Positions 6,852-16,478 of a stretch of DNA of 64,000 nucleotides are shown piece after piece. The notes below the pieces were generated by a model. That model saw only the letters and a program-made list of their open reading frames with translations, had not been told where the DNA came from and did no database searches. The position numbers were made by a program, and so were the translations under genes. The first letter of the stretch is position 1, and every line of letters begins with the position of its first letter. This DNA comes from Isoptericola dokdonensis DS-3 (GTDB lineage Bacteria; Actinomycetota; Actinomycetes; Actinomycetales; Cellulomonadaceae). Location: NCBI RefSeq assembly GCF_001636295.1, contig NZ_CP014209.1:682001-746000 (forward strand), in the 5' to 3' direction.

Positions 6852-8675
6852 TCAGGCGATGGAGGCCCGCCAGGCCGCGTCCAGCGCGGCGTACCGGCCG
6901 CCGGCCGCGGCGAGGTCCGCCGGGGTGCCGTCCTCGACGACCCGCCCGTGCTCCATGACCAGGACCCGGTCGGCGATCTCGACGGTGGACAGCCGGTGCG
7001 CGATGACGAGGGCGGTGCGGTCGGCGAGCAGGGTGCGCAGGCCGCGCTGCACGAGCCGCTCCCCCGGCAGGTCGAGGGAGCTGGTGGCCTCGTCGAGGAC
7101 GAGCACCGCCGGGTCGGCGAGGAACGCCCGGGCGAAGCTGATGAGCTGCCGCTGTCCGGCCGACACCCGCCCGCCACGCTTGTTGACGTCCGTGTCGTAC
7201 CCGTCGGGAAGCGACGCGACGAAGTCGTGCACGCCCACCGCGCGGGCGGCCGCCTCGATCTCGGCGTCCGTGGCGTCGGGCCGCCCCAGGGCGATGTTCT
7301 CCCGCACGGACCCGCTGAACAGGTACGCCTCCTGGGTGACCATGACGACGGCCCGGCGCAGGTCCGTGGTGGACAGGTCGCGCAGGTCCACGCCGTCGAG
7401 CGTCACGGCGCCGGCCGACGGGTCGTAGAACCGTGTCACCAGCTTCGCCACGGTGGACTTGCCGGCGCCGGTCGTGCCCAGCAGGGCGACGGTCTGCCCG
7501 GCGGGCAGGTGCAGGTCGAGGTCCGGCAGCACCACCGGGCCCGCGCCGTACCGGAAGGTGACGTCCGCGAGGCGCACGTCGCCGCGGGCGGCGCCCAGCG
7601 GCACCGGTCGGCGCGGTTCGGCGACCGTGGGCTCCTCGGCGAGCAGCCCCGACACCTTCTCCAGGGCCGCCACCGCGGACTGCAGCGCGTTGTAGAACAT
7701 GCCGAGCTGCTGGATCGGCTGGAAGAAGCGCTTGACGTAGAGCAGCACGGCCACCAGCGCGCCGACGTCGAGGGTCCCCTCCACGACCCGCCAGCCACCG
7801 AGGGCGAGGGCGACGGCGACGGTCACGTTGCCGATGAGGACCAGGCCCGGCTGGTAGCGGCCGTTGACGCCGAAGATCCGCAGGTTCGCGTCGCGGTACT
7901 CCTCGCCGAGGCGGGCGTACTCGGCCTCCGAGGCGCGCTCGCCCCGGAACGCCTGCACGGCGCGCATGCCCGTCATCGTCTCGACGAACCGGACGATGAG
8001 GCGCGCCGACGCCGTGCGCTGCTCGCGGTAGAACAGCTGGGAGCGGCGCTGGAACCAGCGCGTGAGGAACCAGGCGGGCACGAGGGCGCACACCAGGACG
8101 AGGCCGGAGCGCCAGTCCACCCAGAACAGGGCCGCGCCGGTGAACACCATGAGCATGAGCGACGACACCACGCCCGTGAGCCCGCCGTCGAAGAGCTCGC
8201 GCAGCGCCTCCAGGTCGGACGTCTGGCGGCTGATGACCCGCCCGGAGGTGTACGACTCGTGGAACTCCAGCGAGAGCCGCTGGGTGTGCCGGAACACGCG
8301 GCGTCGCAGCTCCAGCAGGACGCTCTGCGCGACGCGCGACGCGGCGCGCACGTACGCGCCCGCGCAGATCCCGCCGAGGACGGCGGCGAGCAGGTAGGCG
8401 CCGCCGACGACGACCAGGGTCGTGGGGTCCCCGTCGGTGAGGGCGGGCAGCGCGGTGTCGATGGCGGCCTGGACCAGCAGGGGTCCGGCCACCTGGCCGA
8501 CCGTGCTGACCACGACCAGCAGGCCCGCCCACGCGAGCTGCCGGCCACGCGGGCGCAGCAGCCCGCCGAGCAGCGCGAGGGAGCGAGCCCGCACGGCCCG
8601 CGAGGCGGCGGCGTCGAGCGTGGTGGCGTCGTCGGCGGCGGCCGTCGTGGCGCGCCGGTCGGTGGGTGCGGTCAC
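6852..8675 (-). CDS. ABC exporter half-transporter, canonical ATPase subunit
   Basis: 607 residues: six transmembrane helices (about 30-330) fused to a nucleotide-binding domain (about 365-600). Walker A is GTTGAGKST, the signature is VSAGQRQ, Walker B with catalytic Glu is VLVLDEATSSLD, and the H-loop is IAHRLST. It starts at GTG 8675, overlapping the upstream partner's TGA by 4 bp, so the two are made together and should form a heterodimer. Its complete Walker B Glu contrasts with the partner's altered one. Substrate could be a drug, lipid or peptide and is not readable from sequence. Confidence 0.9.
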   Translation of the reverse strand: MTAPTDRRATTAAADDATTLDAAASRAVRARSLALLGGLLRPRGRQLAWAGLLVVVSTVGQVAGPLLVQAAIDTALPALTDGDPTTLVVVGGAYLLAAVLGGICAGAYVRAASRVAQSVLLELRRRVFRHTQRLSLEFHESYTSGRVISRQTSDLEALRELFDGGLTGVVSSLMLMVFTGAALFWVDWRSGLVLVCALVPAWFLTRWFQRRSQLFYREQRTASARLIVRFVETMTGMRAVQAFRGERASEAEYARLGEEYRDANLRIFGVNGRYQPGLVLIGNVTVAVALALGGWRVVEGTLDVGALVAVLLYVKRFFQPIQQLGMFYNALQSAVAALEKVSGLLAEEPTVAEPRRPVPLGAARGDVRLADVTFRYGAGPVVLPDLDLHLPAGQTVALLGTTGAGKSTVAKLVTRFYDPSAGAVTLDGVDLRDLSTTDLRRAVVMVTQEAYLFSGSVRENIALGRPDATDAEIEAAARAVGVHDFVASLPDGYDTDVNKRGGRVSAGQRQLISFARAFLADPAVLVLDEATSSLDLPGERLVQRGLRTLLADRTALVIAHRLSTVEIADRVLVMEHGRVVEDGTPADLAAAGGRYAALDAAWRASIA

Positions 8676-10528
8676 GAGCGGACCTCCGTGGTGTCCTCGC
8701 GGTGGGCCCAGTCGTCCTCCAGCGAGGCGATGACGTGGCGGTAGTGGGCGTCGGTGGCGAGCAGCTCGCGGTGCGTCCCGACGGCGGTGACGCGGCCGTC
8801 GGCGAGGACGGCCACGCGGTCGGCGAGCGCCACGGTCGAGGAGCGGTGGGCGATGACGAGGCTGGTGGTGCCGGCGAGCACCCGGCGCAGCCGCTCGGTG
8901 ACGGCCTCCTCGGTGGCGACGTCCAGGGCGGACAGCGGGTCGTCCAGGACGAGGACGCGGGGCCGGGCGGCGATGGCGCGGGCGAGCGCGAGGCGCTGCC
9001 GCTGCCCGCCGGACAGCGAGTGGCCCTCCTCCCCGACGAGGGTGTCGACGCCCTGGGGCAGGTCGCGCACGAACTGCGCCTGGGCGATGTCGAGCGACTC
9101 GCGCAGGAGCCGGTCGCGGGTGTCGGCGGGCAGGTCGGGGTCGACGCCGAGCAGGACGTTGTCGCGCACGGACGCCGAGAACAGGGTGGGGTCCTCGAAG
9201 GCGACGGCCACCGCACGGCGCACGTCCTGGCGGCGCATCGCGCGCACGTCCACGCCGTCGAGGAGCACGGCGCCGGCGGTGACGTCGTGGATGCGCGGGA
9301 CGAGCAGCGCGAGCGTCGACTTGCCGGAGCCGGTGAGCCCGACCAGCGCCGTGCTGGTCCCGGCCGGCAGGTCGAGGTCGAGGTGCTGCAGGACGGGCGG
9401 GCCGTCGGGGTGGGCGAAGGTGACGTCGCGCAGGGTGACGTGCCCCTCGACGTCGGCGGGCTCCACCGGGTCCGCGGGGTCGGTGAGCGGGTTCGGGGTG
9501 TCGAGCACCTGGAAGAAGCGGTCGACGGCGGAGCGGGCGTTGAGGGTCATCGACAGGGTCTGACCGAGGTCGACGACGGGCCCGTTGATGACGGCAGCGG
9601 TGAGGAAGAAGGCGGCGAGCGCGCCGACGGTGATCTGGCCGGTGGAGGCGAGCCACACGCCCAGCACGAGGCACGCGGCGAGCGTGGCCTCGGGGATGAG
9701 CTGGAGAGAGGTGGTGACGGTCGCCTGGTTGGAGGCCTTGCGCAGCTCGGTGCGCCGCAGCTCCTCGGCCTGCCCGGTGAACGAGTCGAGGGCCTCGCGG
9801 TGCCGGCCGAACGCCTTGAGCACGCGGATCCCGTGGACCGACTCCTCGACGGTGTTGGCGAGGTCGCCGGACTGGTCCTGGGACAGGCGGGCGATGACGC
9901 GGTAGCGGCGGGAGAACCGGAACGCGATGACGGTGACGGGGATCGCGCCGGCGAGGTAGACCAGGCCCAGCCACCCGGCGGTGGTCACGAGGAACCCGAC
10001 GCCGACGACGATCGTGATGGTCGACACCACGAGCTGCAGCAGGCCGAACACGAGCCAGCGGCGCAGGAGGCCCAGGTCGCCCATGGACCGGCTGAGGAGC
10101 TGCCCGCCGGGCCAGCGGTCGTGGAAGGCGGCGGGCAGGTCCTGCAGGTGCCGGAACAGGGCGATCCGCAGCGCGGCCTCGACCCGGGTGCCGGGGTACA
10201 TGACGAGGTTGCGGCGCAGCAGCACCAGGCCGGCCTCGGCCAGGCCGAGGGCGAGGACGGCGAGCGTGGGGCCGACGAGGGCGGTGTGGTCGCCGGTGGC
10301 GACGCCGTCCGCGAGCGGTCCCTCGACGAGCGCCTGGAGGACGCGCGGGATCGCGAGCGCGGCGAGGCTGGCGCCGAGGGCGGCGAGCATGCCGCCGAGC
10401 AGGCGCGGCAGCGCGGGTCGGACGAACGGCAGGAGGCGGCGGAGCGAGGCGACGGTGCTCAGCTCGGAGCCGACGGGGGCGGGGGGTGCGGTGGGACCCG
10501 GTCTGCCGGGATCGGTGGTGGGGGGCAT
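8672..10528 (-). CDS. ABC exporter half-transporter, degenerate ATPase subunit
   Basis: 618 residues with the same TM-plus-ATPase layout. Walker A is GLTGSGKST, the signature is LSGGQRQRLALARA and the H-loop is IAHRSST. After the Walker B Asp the catalytic Glu is replaced by Asp (VLVLDDPLSALD). Paired with the next gene this gives a heterodimeric exporter with one weak ATP site, as known for BmrCD and TM287/288. The ATG at 10528 was chosen because CACAAT lies 8 nt upstream; a GTG at 10546 is in frame but overlaps that box. First gene of a two-gene operon. Confidence 0.9.
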   Translation of the reverse strand: MPPTTDPGRPGPTAPPAPVGSELSTVASLRRLLPFVRPALPRLLGGMLAALGASLAALAIPRVLQALVEGPLADGVATGDHTALVGPTLAVLALGLAEAGLVLLRRNLVMYPGTRVEAALRIALFRHLQDLPAAFHDRWPGGQLLSRSMGDLGLLRRWLVFGLLQLVVSTITIVVGVGFLVTTAGWLGLVYLAGAIPVTVIAFRFSRRYRVIARLSQDQSGDLANTVEESVHGIRVLKAFGRHREALDSFTGQAEELRRTELRKASNQATVTTSLQLIPEATLAACLVLGVWLASTGQITVGALAAFFLTAAVINGPVVDLGQTLSMTLNARSAVDRFFQVLDTPNPLTDPADPVEPADVEGHVTLRDVTFAHPDGPPVLQHLDLDLPAGTSTALVGLTGSGKSTLALLVPRIHDVTAGAVLLDGVDVRAMRRQDVRRAVAVAFEDPTLFSASVRDNVLLGVDPDLPADTRDRLLRESLDIAQAQFVRDLPQGVDTLVGEEGHSLSGGQRQRLALARAIAARPRVLVLDDPLSALDVATEEAVTERLRRVLAGTTSLVIAHRSSTVALADRVAVLADGRVTAVGTHRELLATDAHYRHVIASLEDDWAHREDTTEVRS

Positions 10529-10536
10529 CGGGGTCC

Positions 10537-10542
10537 ATTGTG
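10537..10542 (-). promoter_or_regulatory. -10 box (CACAAT) for the ABC exporter operon
   Basis: CACAAT on the minus strand ends 8 nt before the ATG at 10528. The context ACAATGGnCCCC is shared with the der and rluB promoters (57409-57414, 59091-59096). Confidence 0.45.
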
Positions 10543-10647
10543 GCACCGCGCACCCTCACTGTTGCCCCGGCACACCGGGACCCGGGTAACCGCTTCCCGG
10601 GGTCGTCCCGACCGCGGTCGCCGTGCCGCCGCACCGTCCGGAGCCCG

Positions 10648-10660: not shown

Positions 10661-12076
10661 ATGGGTGGAGCAGCTGTCGTCGGACTGGTCACGGGTGCGG
10701 TGCTGGTGGTGACGGTGCTGGTGGCCGTCGTGGTCTGGTCCGTGCGGCGCCGTCGCGGGCGCGCCGCCGACGCCGCGGCCGAGCTCGACCGGCTCGGCGT
10801 CCGGGCCGGGTCCGCGCTGGTGCGCGCCGACGAGCGCGCCCGGCTCGCCGAGGACGAGCTCGCGTTCGCCGAGGCCGAGCTCGGCACCGAGGCGACGGCC
10901 GATCTCGCCGGGCACGTGCGCCGGGCCCGCGAGCACGTCGGCGAGGCGTTCCACCTCAACCAGCTCCTGCACGACCACGTCCCCGACACCGACGCGGAGC
11001 GACGCGAGTGGTCGGCGCGGATCGTCGGGCTGTGCACCGACGCCGAGGCGGTGCTCGACTCCCTCGAGTCCGGTCTCGCCGAGCGGCGCCGCACCGCGCG
11101 GGCGACCCCGGCGGCGCTGGACCGCATCGCCGCGGAGGTCGAGAAGGTCCGCGGCGCCGTCCCTGCCGCGCGCGACGACGTCGCCGAGCTCGCCACCCGC
11201 TACGCGCCGTCCGCGCTGCGCCCGGTCGCCGACAACCCGGCCCAGGCGGACCGGCTGCTGGAGTTCGCCGGCCGGGGCCTCGCCGCGGCACGCCGCAAGC
11301 TGGACGACGGCGAGCCCACGCAGGCCGCGGCGACCGCCCGGGCCGCCGAGGAGTCGGTCAACCGCGCCCAGGGGCTGCTCAAGGCGGTCCGCGACTTCGA
11401 GGCGGACGCCCTCACGGCCGAGGCGGCCCTGGGCGCGATGGTCGCCGAGTCCCGCAGCGAGCTCGCCCAGGCCCGTGCCCTGCCCGCCCCCCAGCGCGCC
11501 GGCGCGGTCGACGCCGCAGCCACGGCCCTGCAGTCCGCGCTCGACGCGCTGCCCGCACCCGGCGCCCCGCAGGACCCGGTCGGCTCCCTCACCCAGGTGC
11601 GCCAGGCGAACACCGCGCTCGACGACGCCGTGCGCCGCCGCCTGGAGGCCGACGACCGCGCCCGCCGCGCCACGGCGCAGCTCGCCCCCGCCCTGGACGA
11701 CGCCGAGCGCCAGGTGGCCGCGGCACGTGCCGTCGTCGACGACTACCGCGCCCCGGTCGGCCCCGACGCCCGCACCCGGCTGGCCGAGGCGCAGCGCGAG
11801 CTGTCCGCCGCGCGGTCCCTGTCCGAGCCCGAGCGCGCGGTCGACGCCGCACGCCGCGCCGCCGCCCTCGCCGCGGAGGCGGCGACCCTCGCCCACCGCG
11901 ACATCGCCCGCACCCACCACGGCCAGTCGTGGGGCACGCAGCACGCCGGCCACCGCCCCCGCGGCGGCGGCATGGGCGGCATGGGCGGTACCGGTGCCTT
12001 CGGGGCCGTGCTGGGCGGCATGGTGCTCGGCGGGATCCTCGACGACATCGGCGACATGGGCGATCTCTTCGACTGA
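10661..12076 (+). CDS. single-pass membrane coiled-coil protein with Gly/Met tail
   Basis: 471 residues, family not recognised. One transmembrane helix lies at about residues 4-26 ([20 protein letters not shown]), followed by an arginine-rich stop-transfer ([11 protein letters not shown]). About 370 residues of Ala/Arg/Glu/Leu-rich helix follow with heptad-like spacing and many short helical repeats. The C-terminus is a His/Gly-rich hinge, then [15 protein letters not shown] and an acidic end ([11 protein letters not shown]). Actinobacterial TPM-domain proteins have a similar long helical region and Gly-rich tail, but no TPM domain is present. The helical part is predicted to be cytoplasmic. 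It is divergent from the ABC exporter gene. Confidence 0.7.
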
Positions 12077-12224
12077 CCGACCCCGGCCCGCGCACCGGCG
12101 ATTGTGCCGATGCCCCCGGGCCGGAGCGTCCCGCACGCTGGCGGAGCAGCCACGGCACGCGCCGCCGGCCCGGCGTCACCGACGACGCCCGGGTGGGTGC
12201 GTGCCCCGTCAGAGAGGACGACAC

Positions 12225-13121
12225 GTGCAGCACTCCACGAGCACCCTGAGGGTGCGTCACCGCATGTCCGGGATCCTGGCCTCGCTCGCCGTCGCCGTCG
12301 GCGTCGGCGTCCTCGCCGGCCCCGGGGCCACCGCCGCGGACAACCCCTTCGAGCGCGGTCCCGCGCCGTCGGAGTCGAGCATCGAGGCGTCGCGCGGCTC
12401 GTACCAGGTCTCCACCCGCAACGTCTCGAGCCTCGTCACCGGGTTCGGCGGCGGCACGATCCACTACCCGACGACCCGCGCGGACGGCACGTTCGGCGCG
12501 GTCGTCGTCTCCCCCGGCTACACCGGCACCGAGAGCTCGATATCCTGGCTCGGCCCACGCCTCTCGTCCCAGGGGTTCGTGGTGCTGACGATGGCCACGA
12601 ACTCGGTCTACGACCAGCCGGACTCCCGCGCCACCCAGCTCCAGGCCGCGCTGGACTACCTGACGAGCTCGTCCAGCGGGGTGGCCGACCGCGTCGACGC
12701 CGGCCGGCTCGCCCTCATGGGCCACTCCATGGGCGGCGGGGGCACCCTGCGGGCCGTGGAGGAGAACCCGGCGATCAAGGCCGCGATCCCCATGACCCCG
12801 TGGCACACGGACAAGACGTGGGGCCAGGTGAGCACGCCGACGCTGATCTTCGGCGCCGAGTACGACACGATCGCCCCGCACGGGACCCACGCCGAGCTGT
12901 TCTACGGCTCCCTGCCCTCCGGCCTGGACAAGGCGTACCTGGAGCTGAACGGTGCGTCCCACTTCGCGCCGAACACGAACGACACCACGATCGCGAAGTA
13001 CTCGATCGCCTGGCTCAAGCGGTTCGTCGACGACGACACCCGGTACACCCAGTTCCTGTGCCCCGGTCCCTCGTTCCTCGACCTCGACGTCGAGAAGTAC
13101 TCCGCCACCTGCCCGTTCTGA
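12225..13121 (+). CDS. secreted cutinase / polyester hydrolase (PET-hydrolase type)
   Basis: A 298-residue alpha/beta hydrolase that closely follows actinobacterial cutinases such as those of Thermobifida. A Sec signal peptide (about 1-38, ending GATAA) precedes the mature start DNPFERGP. Catalytic Ser168 is in GHSMGGGG, Asp214 in GAEYDTIAP and His246 in GASHFAPN. Oxyanion-hole residues are Tyr99 (PGYTGT) and Met169. Trp193 (TPWH), His222 and Phe226 fall where typical cutinases carry Trp, His and Phe; the Ideonella PETase has Ser and Ile at the last two positions. Cys279-Cys296 should form the conserved C-terminal disulfide. It should hydrolyse cutin-like polyesters and short acyl esters. The GTG at 12225 has an AGAGAGG ribosome site; an ATG at 12264 is in frame. 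Confidence 0.93.
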
Positions 13122-13207
13122 GACGCACGCCCCGGGGTCGCGACGTCGTCGCGGCCCCGCGGTGTGCACCGGCACAGTCCGCGCAGGACGCCCGGTCGGG
13201 CGGTCCC

Positions 13208-13213
13208 TACGCT
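13208..13213 (+). promoter_or_regulatory. -10 box (TACGCT) for leaderless luxR-type gene
   Basis: TACGCT ends 6 nt before the ATG at 13220. The same hexamer precedes the gene at 38650. Confidence 0.5.
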
Positions 13214-13219
13214 CGGCCC

Positions 13220-14674
13220 ATGTCCGCGACGACGCCGACCCTGCCCTCGGGCCCCTCCGCCCTGGACCGTGGGCTGCGACTGACCGCCCGTGGCCCGGCG
13301 CCCGACGCGTGGGCGAGCCTCGTCGTGGCGCGGGACGCACCGTCGGCGACGCCCGCCGAGTCCCTCACCGCTGCCCTCGCGGCCGCGGACGTCGCGTGGG
13401 CGGCCGGCGACCATCCCGGCTGCGTGGCGGCCGTGGAGGCGGCGCTGCACGTCGTGGGCGACGAGCCCGGGTTCCTCGCCGACCACCTGACCGGCATGCT
13501 GGCGCTGCTCGCCGAGCGCCGCCGGGACGCGGTGGGGCCGCTGCGCCGGGCGGTGACCACGGGGCTGGCCAGCACGAGCCCGCAGGTGCTGGTGCGGTGC
13601 TCCGGCACCGCGCTGCTGCTGGGCGACGTCCGGGCGGCGGCCCGGGCCGCCGCCCTCGCCCTCGCCGTGAGCCGCGCGCACCAGGACGCCGGCACGGCGG
13701 TCCGCGCGGTCGAGCAGCTCGCCTACGCCGAGCTGCGCGCCGGGCACCACGCGCTCGCGCGCGAGCACGCCACCGCCGGTCTGCGCGCGGCCCGGCGGTC
13801 CAGCCTGCTCAACGCGACGGCGCACCACCACGCCGTGCTGGCGCTGGTGGCGTCCGTCCAGGACACCGCCGCGACGACACGCCGCCACGCGGCGGCCGCG
13901 ACGACGATCGCCCGGCGGCACGGCCTGGCCCAGCCGGTGACGCTGGCGCAGTGGGCGCTGGCGCGGGTCGAGCTGCGCCAGGGGGACGCCGGTGCCGCGG
14001 CCGACCGGCTGCGGACGCTGCTGGACGGGGCGGGCGGCGGCGCGCACTTCGCGCTGCGGGGGCTCGTCCTGCCGACCTGGGTCGAGGCCGCGGTCGCGGC
14101 GGGTGCCGCGCAGGACGCCCGCGGGCTGCTGCCGGAGCTGGAGCGCTGGGCGGAGCAGGCCGCCGACCCGCAGACGCCCGCGCTCGTGCTGCGGTCGCGC
14201 GCCCTGCTCGCCGCGACCGACGAGGCTCACGACCTCTTCGAGCGGGCGCACGCCGCCCACCGGGACGCCGAGGGCGACTTCGAGCGCGCCCGGACCCTGC
14301 TGCTGCACGGCCGGTGGCTGCGTGGGCGGCGCCGCCCGGCGGACGCGCGCGACCGGCTCCGGACGGCGCTGACGCTCTTCGACCGGTGCGGGGCACCACC
14401 GTGGGCCGCTGCCGCTCGCGCCGAGCTCCGGTCGGCCGGGGCGGCGCGCGCCGACGACCCGGTCGGCGCCGGCCCGGGCGCGCTGGGGGCGCTGACACCG
14501 CACCAGCAGCGCATCGCCCGGCTCGTGGCCGCCGGGGGTACCAACCGCGAGATCGCCGCTCGCCTGTCGGTCAGCGTGCGCACCGTGGACTGCCACCTGC
14601 GCAACGTCTTCGTGGCGCTCGGCGTGCGGTCCCGGGTCGAGCTGGCGCGCCTGGTCCCCGCCGAGGACGCCTAG
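13220..14674 (+). CDS. LuxR-family regulator with helical (TPR-like) sensor region
   Basis: 484 residues. The C-terminal 65 residues form a LuxR-type helix-turn-helix: LTPHQQRIARLVAAGGTNRE, then IAARLSVSVRTVDCHLRN and LGVRSRVELARL. The first 400 residues are Ala- and Leu-rich helical hairpins consistent with TPR-like repeats, as in the C-terminal half of MalT/LAL regulators. No P-loop ATPase is present, so it is a shortened LAL-like regulator. It lies 98 nt downstream of the cutinase gene on the same strand but has its own leaderless promoter. Control of the cutinase is possible but unproven. Confidence 0.85.
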   Translation: MSATTPTLPSGPSALDRGLRLTARGPAPDAWASLVVARDAPSATPAESLTAALAAADVAWAAGDHPGCVAAVEAALHVVGDEPGFLADHLTGMLALLAERRRDAVGPLRRAVTTGLASTSPQVLVRCSGTALLLGDVRAAARAAALALAVSRAHQDAGTAVRAVEQLAYAELRAGHHALAREHATAGLRAARRSSLLNATAHHHAVLALVASVQDTAATTRRHAAAATTIARRHGLAQPVTLAQWALARVELRQGDAGAAADRLRTLLDGAGGGAHFALRGLVLPTWVEAAVAAGAAQDARGLLPELERWAEQAADPQTPALVLRSRALLAATDEAHDLFERAHAAHRDAEGDFERARTLLLHGRWLRGRRRPADARDRLRTALTLFDRCGAPPWAAAARAELRSAGAARADDPVGAGPGALGALTPHQQRIARLVAAGGTNREIAARLSVSVRTVDCHLRNVFVALGVRSRVELARLVPAEDA

Positions 14675-14737
14675 AGACCGACTGGACGGTATGCGATGAT
14701 CGGCGGGCGCCACCGCCGTCGCACCCCGGGAGGGAAC

Positions 14738-15550
14738 ATGCCGTCCGCACCGACCGTCCTGCCCCGCCCCGACCGGGCAGCTCCCGTCCCGGCGGGACGC
14801 CCCGCCGCACCCGCCCTGCCCGGGCCGGTCCGCCGGCCGGGGCACCCCGACCGCTCCCGGCACCAGCTCGTCGGGCACCTGCTCGACGGGACCTGCCGCA
14901 CCGGGGACGTACCGTGGATCGCCGCGCGGCTCGGCCTGCCCGTCCACGGGAGGTACACCGTGGTCGCCCTCGCCGGCGGCTCGGCCGCCGCGAGGATCGC
15001 CGCCCGCACGCTCGTCGAGGGGCCCGCGCACTGGCACACGACCGCCTCGGGCGCCTACGGGATCGTCGGCGGCACCGCGCCCCTGCGTCCCGACCCGCTG
15101 CCCCCGGGCGTCCGGCTCGGCGTCGGGCTCGGCGCACGGGGGCTCGCCCGCGTGGCGCAGGACCGCCGCCGCGCCGACCTCGCCCTGGCGGTGGGGGGCG
15201 CCGGTGTCGTCCGCCTCGGCGAGCACCTGCCGGCGGCGCTCGTCGCCGGCGACCACGAGCTCGGCACCCTGCTGGCCCTGCGCGTCCTCGGCCCCGTCCT
15301 CGCCACGGGCGACGAGGCGGAGGTCCTCCTGCGCACGCTGGAGACCTGGCTGGACGCCGACGGGTCCACCCGGACCTGCGCCGACCGGCTCGGCTGCCAT
15401 CGCAACACGGTCACCAACCGGCTGCACCGGATCGAACGGCTCACCGGGCACCGCGTCGACCGCCCGCGCGACGTCGTCGAGCTCGCGCTCGCGCTCGCCC
15501 GGGCCCGCTCGGGACCGCTGCCGCCGGCGGCCGCCACCACCGGACCCTGA
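14738..15550 (+). CDS. PucR/CdaR-type helix-turn-helix regulator
   Basis: 270 residues. The C-terminus holds the PucR-type HTH: TLETWLDADGSTRTCADRL followed by GCHRNTVTNRLHRIERLTG (about residues 205-245). The middle (about 50-190) resembles the GGDEF-like sensing region of the CdaR/PucR group, without readable catalytic motifs. A Pro/Ala-rich N-terminus is probably disordered. The ATG at 14738 was preferred over one at 14696 because GGGAGGGA lies 5-7 nt upstream. It follows the LuxR-type regulator by 63 nt; its target is unknown. Confidence 0.8.
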   Translation: MPSAPTVLPRPDRAAPVPAGRPAAPALPGPVRRPGHPDRSRHQLVGHLLDGTCRTGDVPWIAARLGLPVHGRYTVVALAGGSAAARIAARTLVEGPAHWHTTASGAYGIVGGTAPLRPDPLPPGVRLGVGLGARGLARVAQDRRRADLALAVGGAGVVRLGEHLPAALVAGDHELGTLLALRVLGPVLATGDEAEVLLRTLETWLDADGSTRTCADRLGCHRNTVTNRLHRIERLTGHRVDRPRDVVELALALARARSGPLPPAAATTGP

Positions 15551-15580
15551 CGCCGCCGCCCGACGTCCCGGCGCCGTCGC

Positions 15581-16468
15581 CTACCGCCCCGGCGCCGTCG
15601 ACACCTCGCTCGACACCCCCGTCGGCGGCACCGGGACGGGCCGCAGGTGCACGAGGTGGTCGACCGGCCCGCGGCCCGACCCGACGTCCAGGCCCGGCCC
15701 GGCGCGCAGGGCGGCCGTCAGCCACTCCTTGGTCGCCGCGAGCGCCGCCGCCCAGTCGCCCCCGGCGGCGTACCGGGTGGCGAGCCCGCTGGACAGCGAG
15801 CAGCCGGTGCCGTGCCCGGCGGTGGTGACGACGCGGGGGGCGGTGAGCTCGACGAGGACTCCCCCGGGTCCGACGAGCGCGTCGGGGGCGAGCGGGCCGT
15901 CGAGGTGGCCGCCCTTGGCGACGACGAGCACGCGATGACGGGCGGCCAGCGCCGTCGCCTGGTCGAGCGCGGTGGCCCAGTCGGCGGCGACGGGCGCGCC
16001 GAGCAGGGTGGCCAGCTCGGGCAGGTTGGGCGTGACGACGTCGGCCTGGGTGAGCAGGGCACGGACGGCGTCCTCGGCGCGGCGGTCGAGGAGCCGGTCG
16101 CCGGAGGTGGCGACCATGACCGGGTCGAGCACGACCGGCGGACGCGTGTCGCCCAGCGCGCCGAGCCAGTCCGCCACGACGTCGGCGACGTCGGCGGTGG
16201 CGAGCATCCCGATCTTCACCGCGTCGACGGTGACGTCGGCGGTGAGGGTGGAGAGCTGGAGCGCGAGGAACTCCGGGGGCGGGACGTGCACCCCCGTGAC
16301 GCCGTGGGTGCTCTGTGCCGTGAGGGCGGTGAGCGCGGCCATCCCGTAGCCGCCGGCCGCGGCCACGGACTTGAGGTCGGCCTGGATCCCGGCGCCTCCC
16401 GAGGGGTCGGAGCCCGCGACGGCCAGGACGCGGGGCACGGCGGGGCGGGGGCGGGGCAGGAGGGTCAT
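15581..16468 (-). CDS. thiD: hydroxymethylpyrimidine/phosphomethylpyrimidine kinase
   Basis: A 295-residue ribokinase-fold enzyme phosphorylating HMP and HMP-P in thiamine biosynthesis. Motifs: AGSDPSGGAGIQADLK (about 18-33), AVKIGMLA, VLDPVMVATSGD (about 120) and the anion-hole ATP-site TTAGHGTGCSLSS (about 235). The ATG at 16468 was chosen because the AAGGGA ribosome site at the 3' end of a TPP riboswitch lies about 10 nt upstream; an ATG at 16477 lies inside the riboswitch end. Expression should fall when TPP is abundant. The gene stands alone, converging on the PucR-type gene. Confidence 0.95.
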   Translation of the reverse strand: MTLLPRPRPAVPRVLAVAGSDPSGGAGIQADLKSVAAAGGYGMAALTALTAQSTHGVTGVHVPPPEFLALQLSTLTADVTVDAVKIGMLATADVADVVADWLGALGDTRPPVVLDPVMVATSGDRLLDRRAEDAVRALLTQADVVTPNLPELATLLGAPVAADWATALDQATALAARHRVLVVAKGGHLDGPLAPDALVGPGGVLVELTAPRVVTTAGHGTGCSLSSGLATRYAAGGDWAAALAATKEWLTAALRAGPGLDVGSGRGPVDHLVHLRPVPVPPTGVSSEVSTAPGR

Positions 16469-16478
16469 GGGCGACATC

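Follow-up and report, generated by a model that had tools for sequence, protein, structure and literature searches.

A putative LipA-like type I polyester hydrolase gene of Isoptericola dokdonensis with a short LipR neighbor and a candidate regulatory box

Organization of the locus

The window considered here, a stretch of 64,000 nucleotides from Isoptericola dokdonensis DS-3 (contig NZ_CP014209.1, positions 682,001 to 746,000), carries at 12225..13121 on the forward strand a LipA-like gene of the type I poly(ethylene terephthalate) (PET) hydrolase/cutinase family, which runs from GTG to TGA and encodes 298 residues. A gene for a LuxR-family regulator of 484 residues (13220..14674, +; GerE, E = 3.7e-13, with a weak TPR_12 match) starts 98 bases past the hydrolase stop, and is followed by one for a PucR-type helix-turn-helix regulator of 284 residues (14696..15550, +; HTH_30, E = 1.8e-20). 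Upstream of the hydrolase gene, at 12094..12113 (+), lies a conserved box, ACCGGCGATTGTGCCGATGC.

According to the accessible part of a review, Streptomyces lipA and the downstream lipR, which encodes a LuxR-family activator, form an operon, and LipR activates through conserved sequences upstream of the -35 element (PMC12134079). The gene arrangement in the window is that of the lipA-lipR operon: the regulator has the position, orientation and LuxR-type DNA-binding end of LipR, and is 47-56% identical over the shared part to LipR of the same-strand Streptomyces loci listed (one outlier, from locus L112 of another genus, is at 38%). It is short, however. Long LipR proteins carry an N-terminal nucleoside triphosphate (NTP)-binding part, and LipR of other loci is mostly an open frame of 875-1249 residues, whereas the window's has no N-terminal part of NTPase size and a pattern search of its 484 residues found no Walker-A-like motif. 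We consider it very probable that the locus encodes a secreted type I polyester hydrolase akin to Streptomyces LipA, its expression most likely driven by the short LipR via the box.

The hydrolase and its characterized relatives

The GTG start at 12225 is supported by AGAGGA at 12213..12218 (+), a likely ribosome-binding site six bases 5' of the GTG, and by an alignment in which the gene begins at the corresponding position in the five other Isoptericola genomes that carry it. The start region is nearly identical across these six carriers, all of which share CGTCAGAGAGGACG around the ribosome-binding site. Read by eye, residues 1-37 (12225..12335, +) are a predicted signal peptide, with cleavage expected after Ala-Thr-Ala at 35-37; the predicted local distance difference test score (pLDDT) of these residues is below 50 in the AlphaFold2 model, and the chains of solved relatives start at residues 38-40. 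No twin arginine was seen in the signal peptide by the same reading, in contrast to the twin-arginine translocation signal given for S. coelicolor LipA (ScLipA) in the available portion of PMC11169514.

The protein matches PF12740, the Pfam family PETase, over profile positions 2-263 of 263 (E = 1.8e-115; 385 bits against a cut-off of 28), the only such match in the 3.83 Mb, single-contig I. dokdonensis genome. True cutinases (PF01083) had no match in its Pfam scan or genome-wide; the Tannase/MHETase family (PF07519) likewise gave no match in the genome, and nothing follows from this because the controls also gave none. The named proteins closest to the hydrolase come from Isoptericola (81% identity to that of I. 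jiangsuensis). Among PDB entries, 183 distinct sequences match at E up to 0.001 (best E = 7.5e-117), headed by ancestral PETases, Thermobifida cutinases and the S. exfoliatus lipase 1jfr. Single-sequence structure prediction reached a mean pLDDT of 34; the AlphaFold2 model and solved PET hydrolases overlay at 0.7-1.4 Å, showing a conserved fold of the kind that the first-pass annotation, made from the sequence alone, had proposed to look for by alignment and modeling.

Besides Streptomyces LipA, the closest known enzymes include Thermobifida TfCut2 and Saccharomonospora Cut190. The first-pass annotation had likened the whole chain to Thermobifida-type cutinases, and the likeness holds: 161 of 257 aligned residues (63%) are identical to TfCut2, against 141 of 253 for LCC and 119 of 255 for the type II Ideonella PETase (IsPETase), whose triad is also shared. 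The reference sequences of IsPETase and LCC are identical to their PDB chains, and that of TfCut2 is one residue off 5zoa. All ten residues that had been singled out (Tyr99, Ser168, Met169, Trp193, Asp214, His222, Phe226, His246, Cys279 and Cys296) are found where they had been placed. The Ser-His-Asp triad, with its serine within G-H-S-M-G, the oxyanion Tyr/Met and the clamp Trp are thus all present, pairing in the alignment with IsPETase Y87/S160/M161/W185/D206/S214/I218/H237 and with TfCut2 S130/D176/H184/F188/H208/C241/C259; the triad, oxyanion residues, Trp, His/Phe pair and disulfide are the same in TfCut2, and these positions also pair with those of LCC.

Type I enzymes have His and Phe at the positions of IsPETase Ser214 and Ile218, only the C-terminal disulfide, and no extended loop. 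By alignment, the window protein has His222 and Phe226 at these positions, as first proposed, and His167 in place of IsPETase Trp159; Cys279 and Cys296 are its only cysteines, so that the second disulfide of IsPETase is missing, and the three-residue loop extension is absent (a gap before Ile256). On these features we assign it to type I of the published scheme, as set out in the available text of PMC13396203, and regard it as an ordinary member by sequence; the same features rule out a type II PETase. The PF12740 and PDB matches exclude a lipase or an acetyl-xylan esterase from some other family. Lipases as closest homologues had been named beforehand as grounds for rejecting the call, and the closest homologues are lipases in name only: 1jfr and Streptomyces LipA belong to the same family, as does 7qjq, which like 1jfr goes under a lipase or acetyl-xylan esterase name. 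Family, fold, catalytic residues and the type I reading of the first-pass annotation are therefore supported. Its suggestion that the C-terminal loop might alter stability or metal binding was overstated: the TfCut2 loop is one residue longer, the loop differs by several residues among the Isoptericola hydrolases, and we dismiss it as a special feature. At D174/D204/E253 of TfCut2, which we take to be its metal site, the window protein has E212/N242/E290, and the six Isoptericola carriers show ENE, EDE or EDQ, which makes metal binding uncertain.

The upstream box and its association with LipR

Alignment of the upstream regions of the six Isoptericola carriers yielded ACCGGYGANNNTGCCGRTGC, exact in 6/6. 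At up to two mismatches the box occurs once in the window, against an average of 0.28 in shuffles. We then compared the best 80 of at least 500 confirmed loci in GTDB genomes, 78 of them outside Isoptericola. Allowing two mismatches, the box is found in 47 of the 78 upstream regions outside the genus. Among 1560 dinucleotide shuffles there is one such match, the opposite strand of the 78 regions has none, and control stretches of 430 bases from the same loci give 3 in 1972. It lies 85-358 bases before the coding start among the 40 rows listed.

LipR was scored as downstream when a LuxR relative of the same orientation followed within 4.5 kb, and as absent when there was no LuxR match at E 1e-15. 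A LuxR relative was downstream in 43 of the 80 loci, elsewhere in 19 and absent in 11; in the remaining 7 the contig ends too early. The box follows this division: where LipR lies downstream it is present in 39 of 43 loci, the two Isoptericola loci among them, where a LuxR match lies elsewhere in 3 of 19, and on short contigs in all 7, whereas the 11 loci that lack a LuxR match, one of which (L094) has only 70 bases upstream, never have it. From this association and the conservation of the box we infer that it is a candidate LipR site. A PucR relative is likewise found downstream in 23 of the 43 loci with LipR, vs none of the other 37.

Taken as open frames rather than annotated genes, LipR in the 43 loci is long in 36 (875-1249 residues), intermediate in 2 and short in 5, the short frames being those of both Isoptericola loci, two Glycomyces and one Streptomyces. 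A Walker-A-like pattern occurs in 29 of the 36 long frames and in none of the short ones. Among eight regions of the same family and order, five lack a LuxR gene, one has it on the opposite strand, and two have it downstream, long in one and short in the other.

Two side observations concern the regulators of these loci. The short Streptomyces frame (495 residues; L125, Streptomyces sp. DI166) follows its hydrolase gene together with a box and a PucR relative; either the N-terminal part was lost a second time here or the assembly is broken. In Lentzea and Saccharothrix (L053, L055-L057, L059, L062, L065, L082, L083 and L110), a different, divergent LuxR-family gene of ~820-965 codons lies ~1.3-1.5 kb upstream of the hydrolase gene (37.9-39.9% identity), which suggests a second regulatory arrangement.

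Elsewhere in the I. dokdonensis genome the exact box recurs at G000:C1:3374788, within a putative GntR-like frame and not 5' of that frame. A one-mismatch form is present in five genomes that lack the hydrolase, and the one case inspected is inside a long coding frame. Matches with a single mismatch are not specific, as there are 47 in the 18 Isoptericola genomes surveyed against 9 for the reversed pattern.

Distribution in Isoptericola and neighboring features

Six of these 18 genomes carry the hydrolase; of the 12 non-carriers, 2 are less than 90% complete. Close relatives of the LuxR-family regulator (57-62% identity; 59-62% for the orthologues of the other five carriers) occur in the same six, other LuxR matches being at 35-41%, and relatives of the PucR-family regulator (46-53%; 48-53% in the other five) also in these six, with one extra weak match (34%) in a seventh. 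In a near sister genome (G010), whose neighboring CorC-like protein is 88% identical, both flanks can be aligned and only ~30 bases stand in place of the window's ~3.6 kb, a clean empty site. Horizontal transfer was considered as a possible origin: the hydrolases of the six Isoptericola carriers group together with a Shimodaira-Hasegawa-like approximate likelihood ratio test (SH-aLRT) value of 100, apart from the sequences of three other genomes of the same family that have no LipR, and the tree does not settle their deeper placement.

The three-gene unit is flanked by a thiD-like kinase gene (15581..16477, -; PF08543, E = 4.9e-72). Over window positions 12076-16477 this gene is 3' of the unit, and it is 5' of the unit in four other carriers (G016, G012, G008 and G009); it was not found within the stretch taken from the fifth (G005). 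Either thiD or the three-gene unit has relocated. On the other side, at 6852-10546 (-), two neighboring ATP-binding cassette (ABC) exporter half-transporters (ABC_membrane plus ABC_tran) are kept in the genus beside the site of the unit. Between the hydrolase and LuxR-family genes, RNA folding detects an inverted repeat of 43 bases with a perfect 12-bp stem (13125..13167, +), a strong hairpin with no T run. It may attenuate read-through; its fold value of -66.9 is a weak signal next to the -64.0 of an equal-length coding control.

Proposed function and alternative explanations

After export, Ser168-His246-Asp214 would attack an ester carbonyl seated in the Tyr99/Met169 oxyanion hole, with Trp193 flanking the acyl part of the substrate, and acid and alcohol would be released, the substrates being fats or the natural polyesters cutin and suberin; aliphatic polyesters and bis(2-hydroxyethyl) terephthalate (BHET) are probably cleaved as well. 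The short LipR would activate the gene via the 12094-12113 box, in the manner described for the Streptomyces operon. The accessible text of PMC11169514 reports that ScLipA hydrolyzes BHET, that deletion of lipA lowers BHET degradation, and that S2LipA has a TfCut2-like effect on PET film. A Black Sea isolate nearest I. halotolerans is among the three strongest polyesterase producers in the available portion of PMC13396203, and the I. halotolerans genome (G008) has a homologue of the hydrolase at 75-76% identity. From the Black Sea isolate and the ScLipA data on BHET and PET film, we expect by analogy that the enzyme cleaves short esters, tributyrin and aliphatic polyesters, acts weakly on BHET and does little to PET.

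Several observations weigh against the proposed function and control. The hydrolase misses the NCBIfam equivalog of the BHET hydrolase BdeA (NF051441; 456.4 bits against a curated cut-off of 520), as does the I. halotolerans homologue (451.7), whereas one Streptomyces homologue passes (569.5). PET film was affected little or not at all by ScLipA, and BHET degradation by LipA variants was far below that by TfCut2, LCC or PET40 (PMC11169514, in the part available); the gene responsible in the Black Sea isolate is not named in the accessible text of PMC13396203. On the regulatory side, Pfam detects no NTPase domain even in the one long Streptomyces LipR examined, and a tree-corrected comparison of box and LipR yields 3 independent pairs, too few (on average 2.4 agree, 0.0 are against and 0.5 show no difference), so the association could come from shared descent.

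It is quite possible, if short of an even chance, that in life the enzyme is a fat-cutting lipase or general esterase to which polyester hydrolysis is incidental. The lipase name of its closest relatives (1jfr) would fit, as would the action of Streptomyces LipA variants on tributyrin and p-nitrophenyl dodecanoate and their weakness on PET, described in the same portion of PMC11169514; yet the open, shallow cleft of the model and the aromatic residues match those of type I polyester hydrolases, and the available text of PMC13396203 has an Isoptericola isolate clearing polycaprolactone. We think it unlikely that the box is a promoter or the site of another factor, inherited within the clade. 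Its presence in three loci with a LuxR match elsewhere would agree with such descent, and the tree-corrected comparison has little power against it, but the box is oriented, keeps to its range of distances before the coding start, and is retained over genera while the surrounding upstream DNA is not. Somewhat more improbable still is that the two regulator genes control other things, the three genes being together only through joint movement: passive co-transfer would also produce the joint absence of all three at a clean empty site, and a PucR gene follows LipR in only about half of the loci with LipR downstream, but the box sits 5' of the hydrolase gene and tracks LipR across genera, and activation of lipA by LipR is reported in Streptomyces (PMC12134079, from the text accessible).

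Implications

Control of the hydrolase by the short LipR via the box remains the reading we prefer. Our literature search for links between this hydrolase family and LuxR or PucR regulators surfaced only the lipAR work, which is no proof of absence in print. More tentatively, and with rather less than even confidence, we propose that a short LipR devoid of the NTPase part makes up, with a PucR-type partner, a transferable control cassette for polyester hydrolases, that the three genes come and go as a unit in Isoptericola, and that the short LipR uses the same box as the long LipR of Streptomyces. If so, the N-terminal NTPase part would be dispensable for target choice, and its loss would alter the signal that switches on polyester degradation; the short LipR is in this sense a natural experiment on the role of the NTPase part. 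The enzyme itself is one more natural sequence in a well-studied family; of more use are the box and the short LipR, which belong to the more informative surroundings that the first-pass annotation left aside. The link between them would give a testable handle on the actinobacterial control of polyester-cutting enzymes, which enzyme-centered work rarely addresses, and the setting of the locus suggests how such enzymes get switched on in soil actinobacteria.
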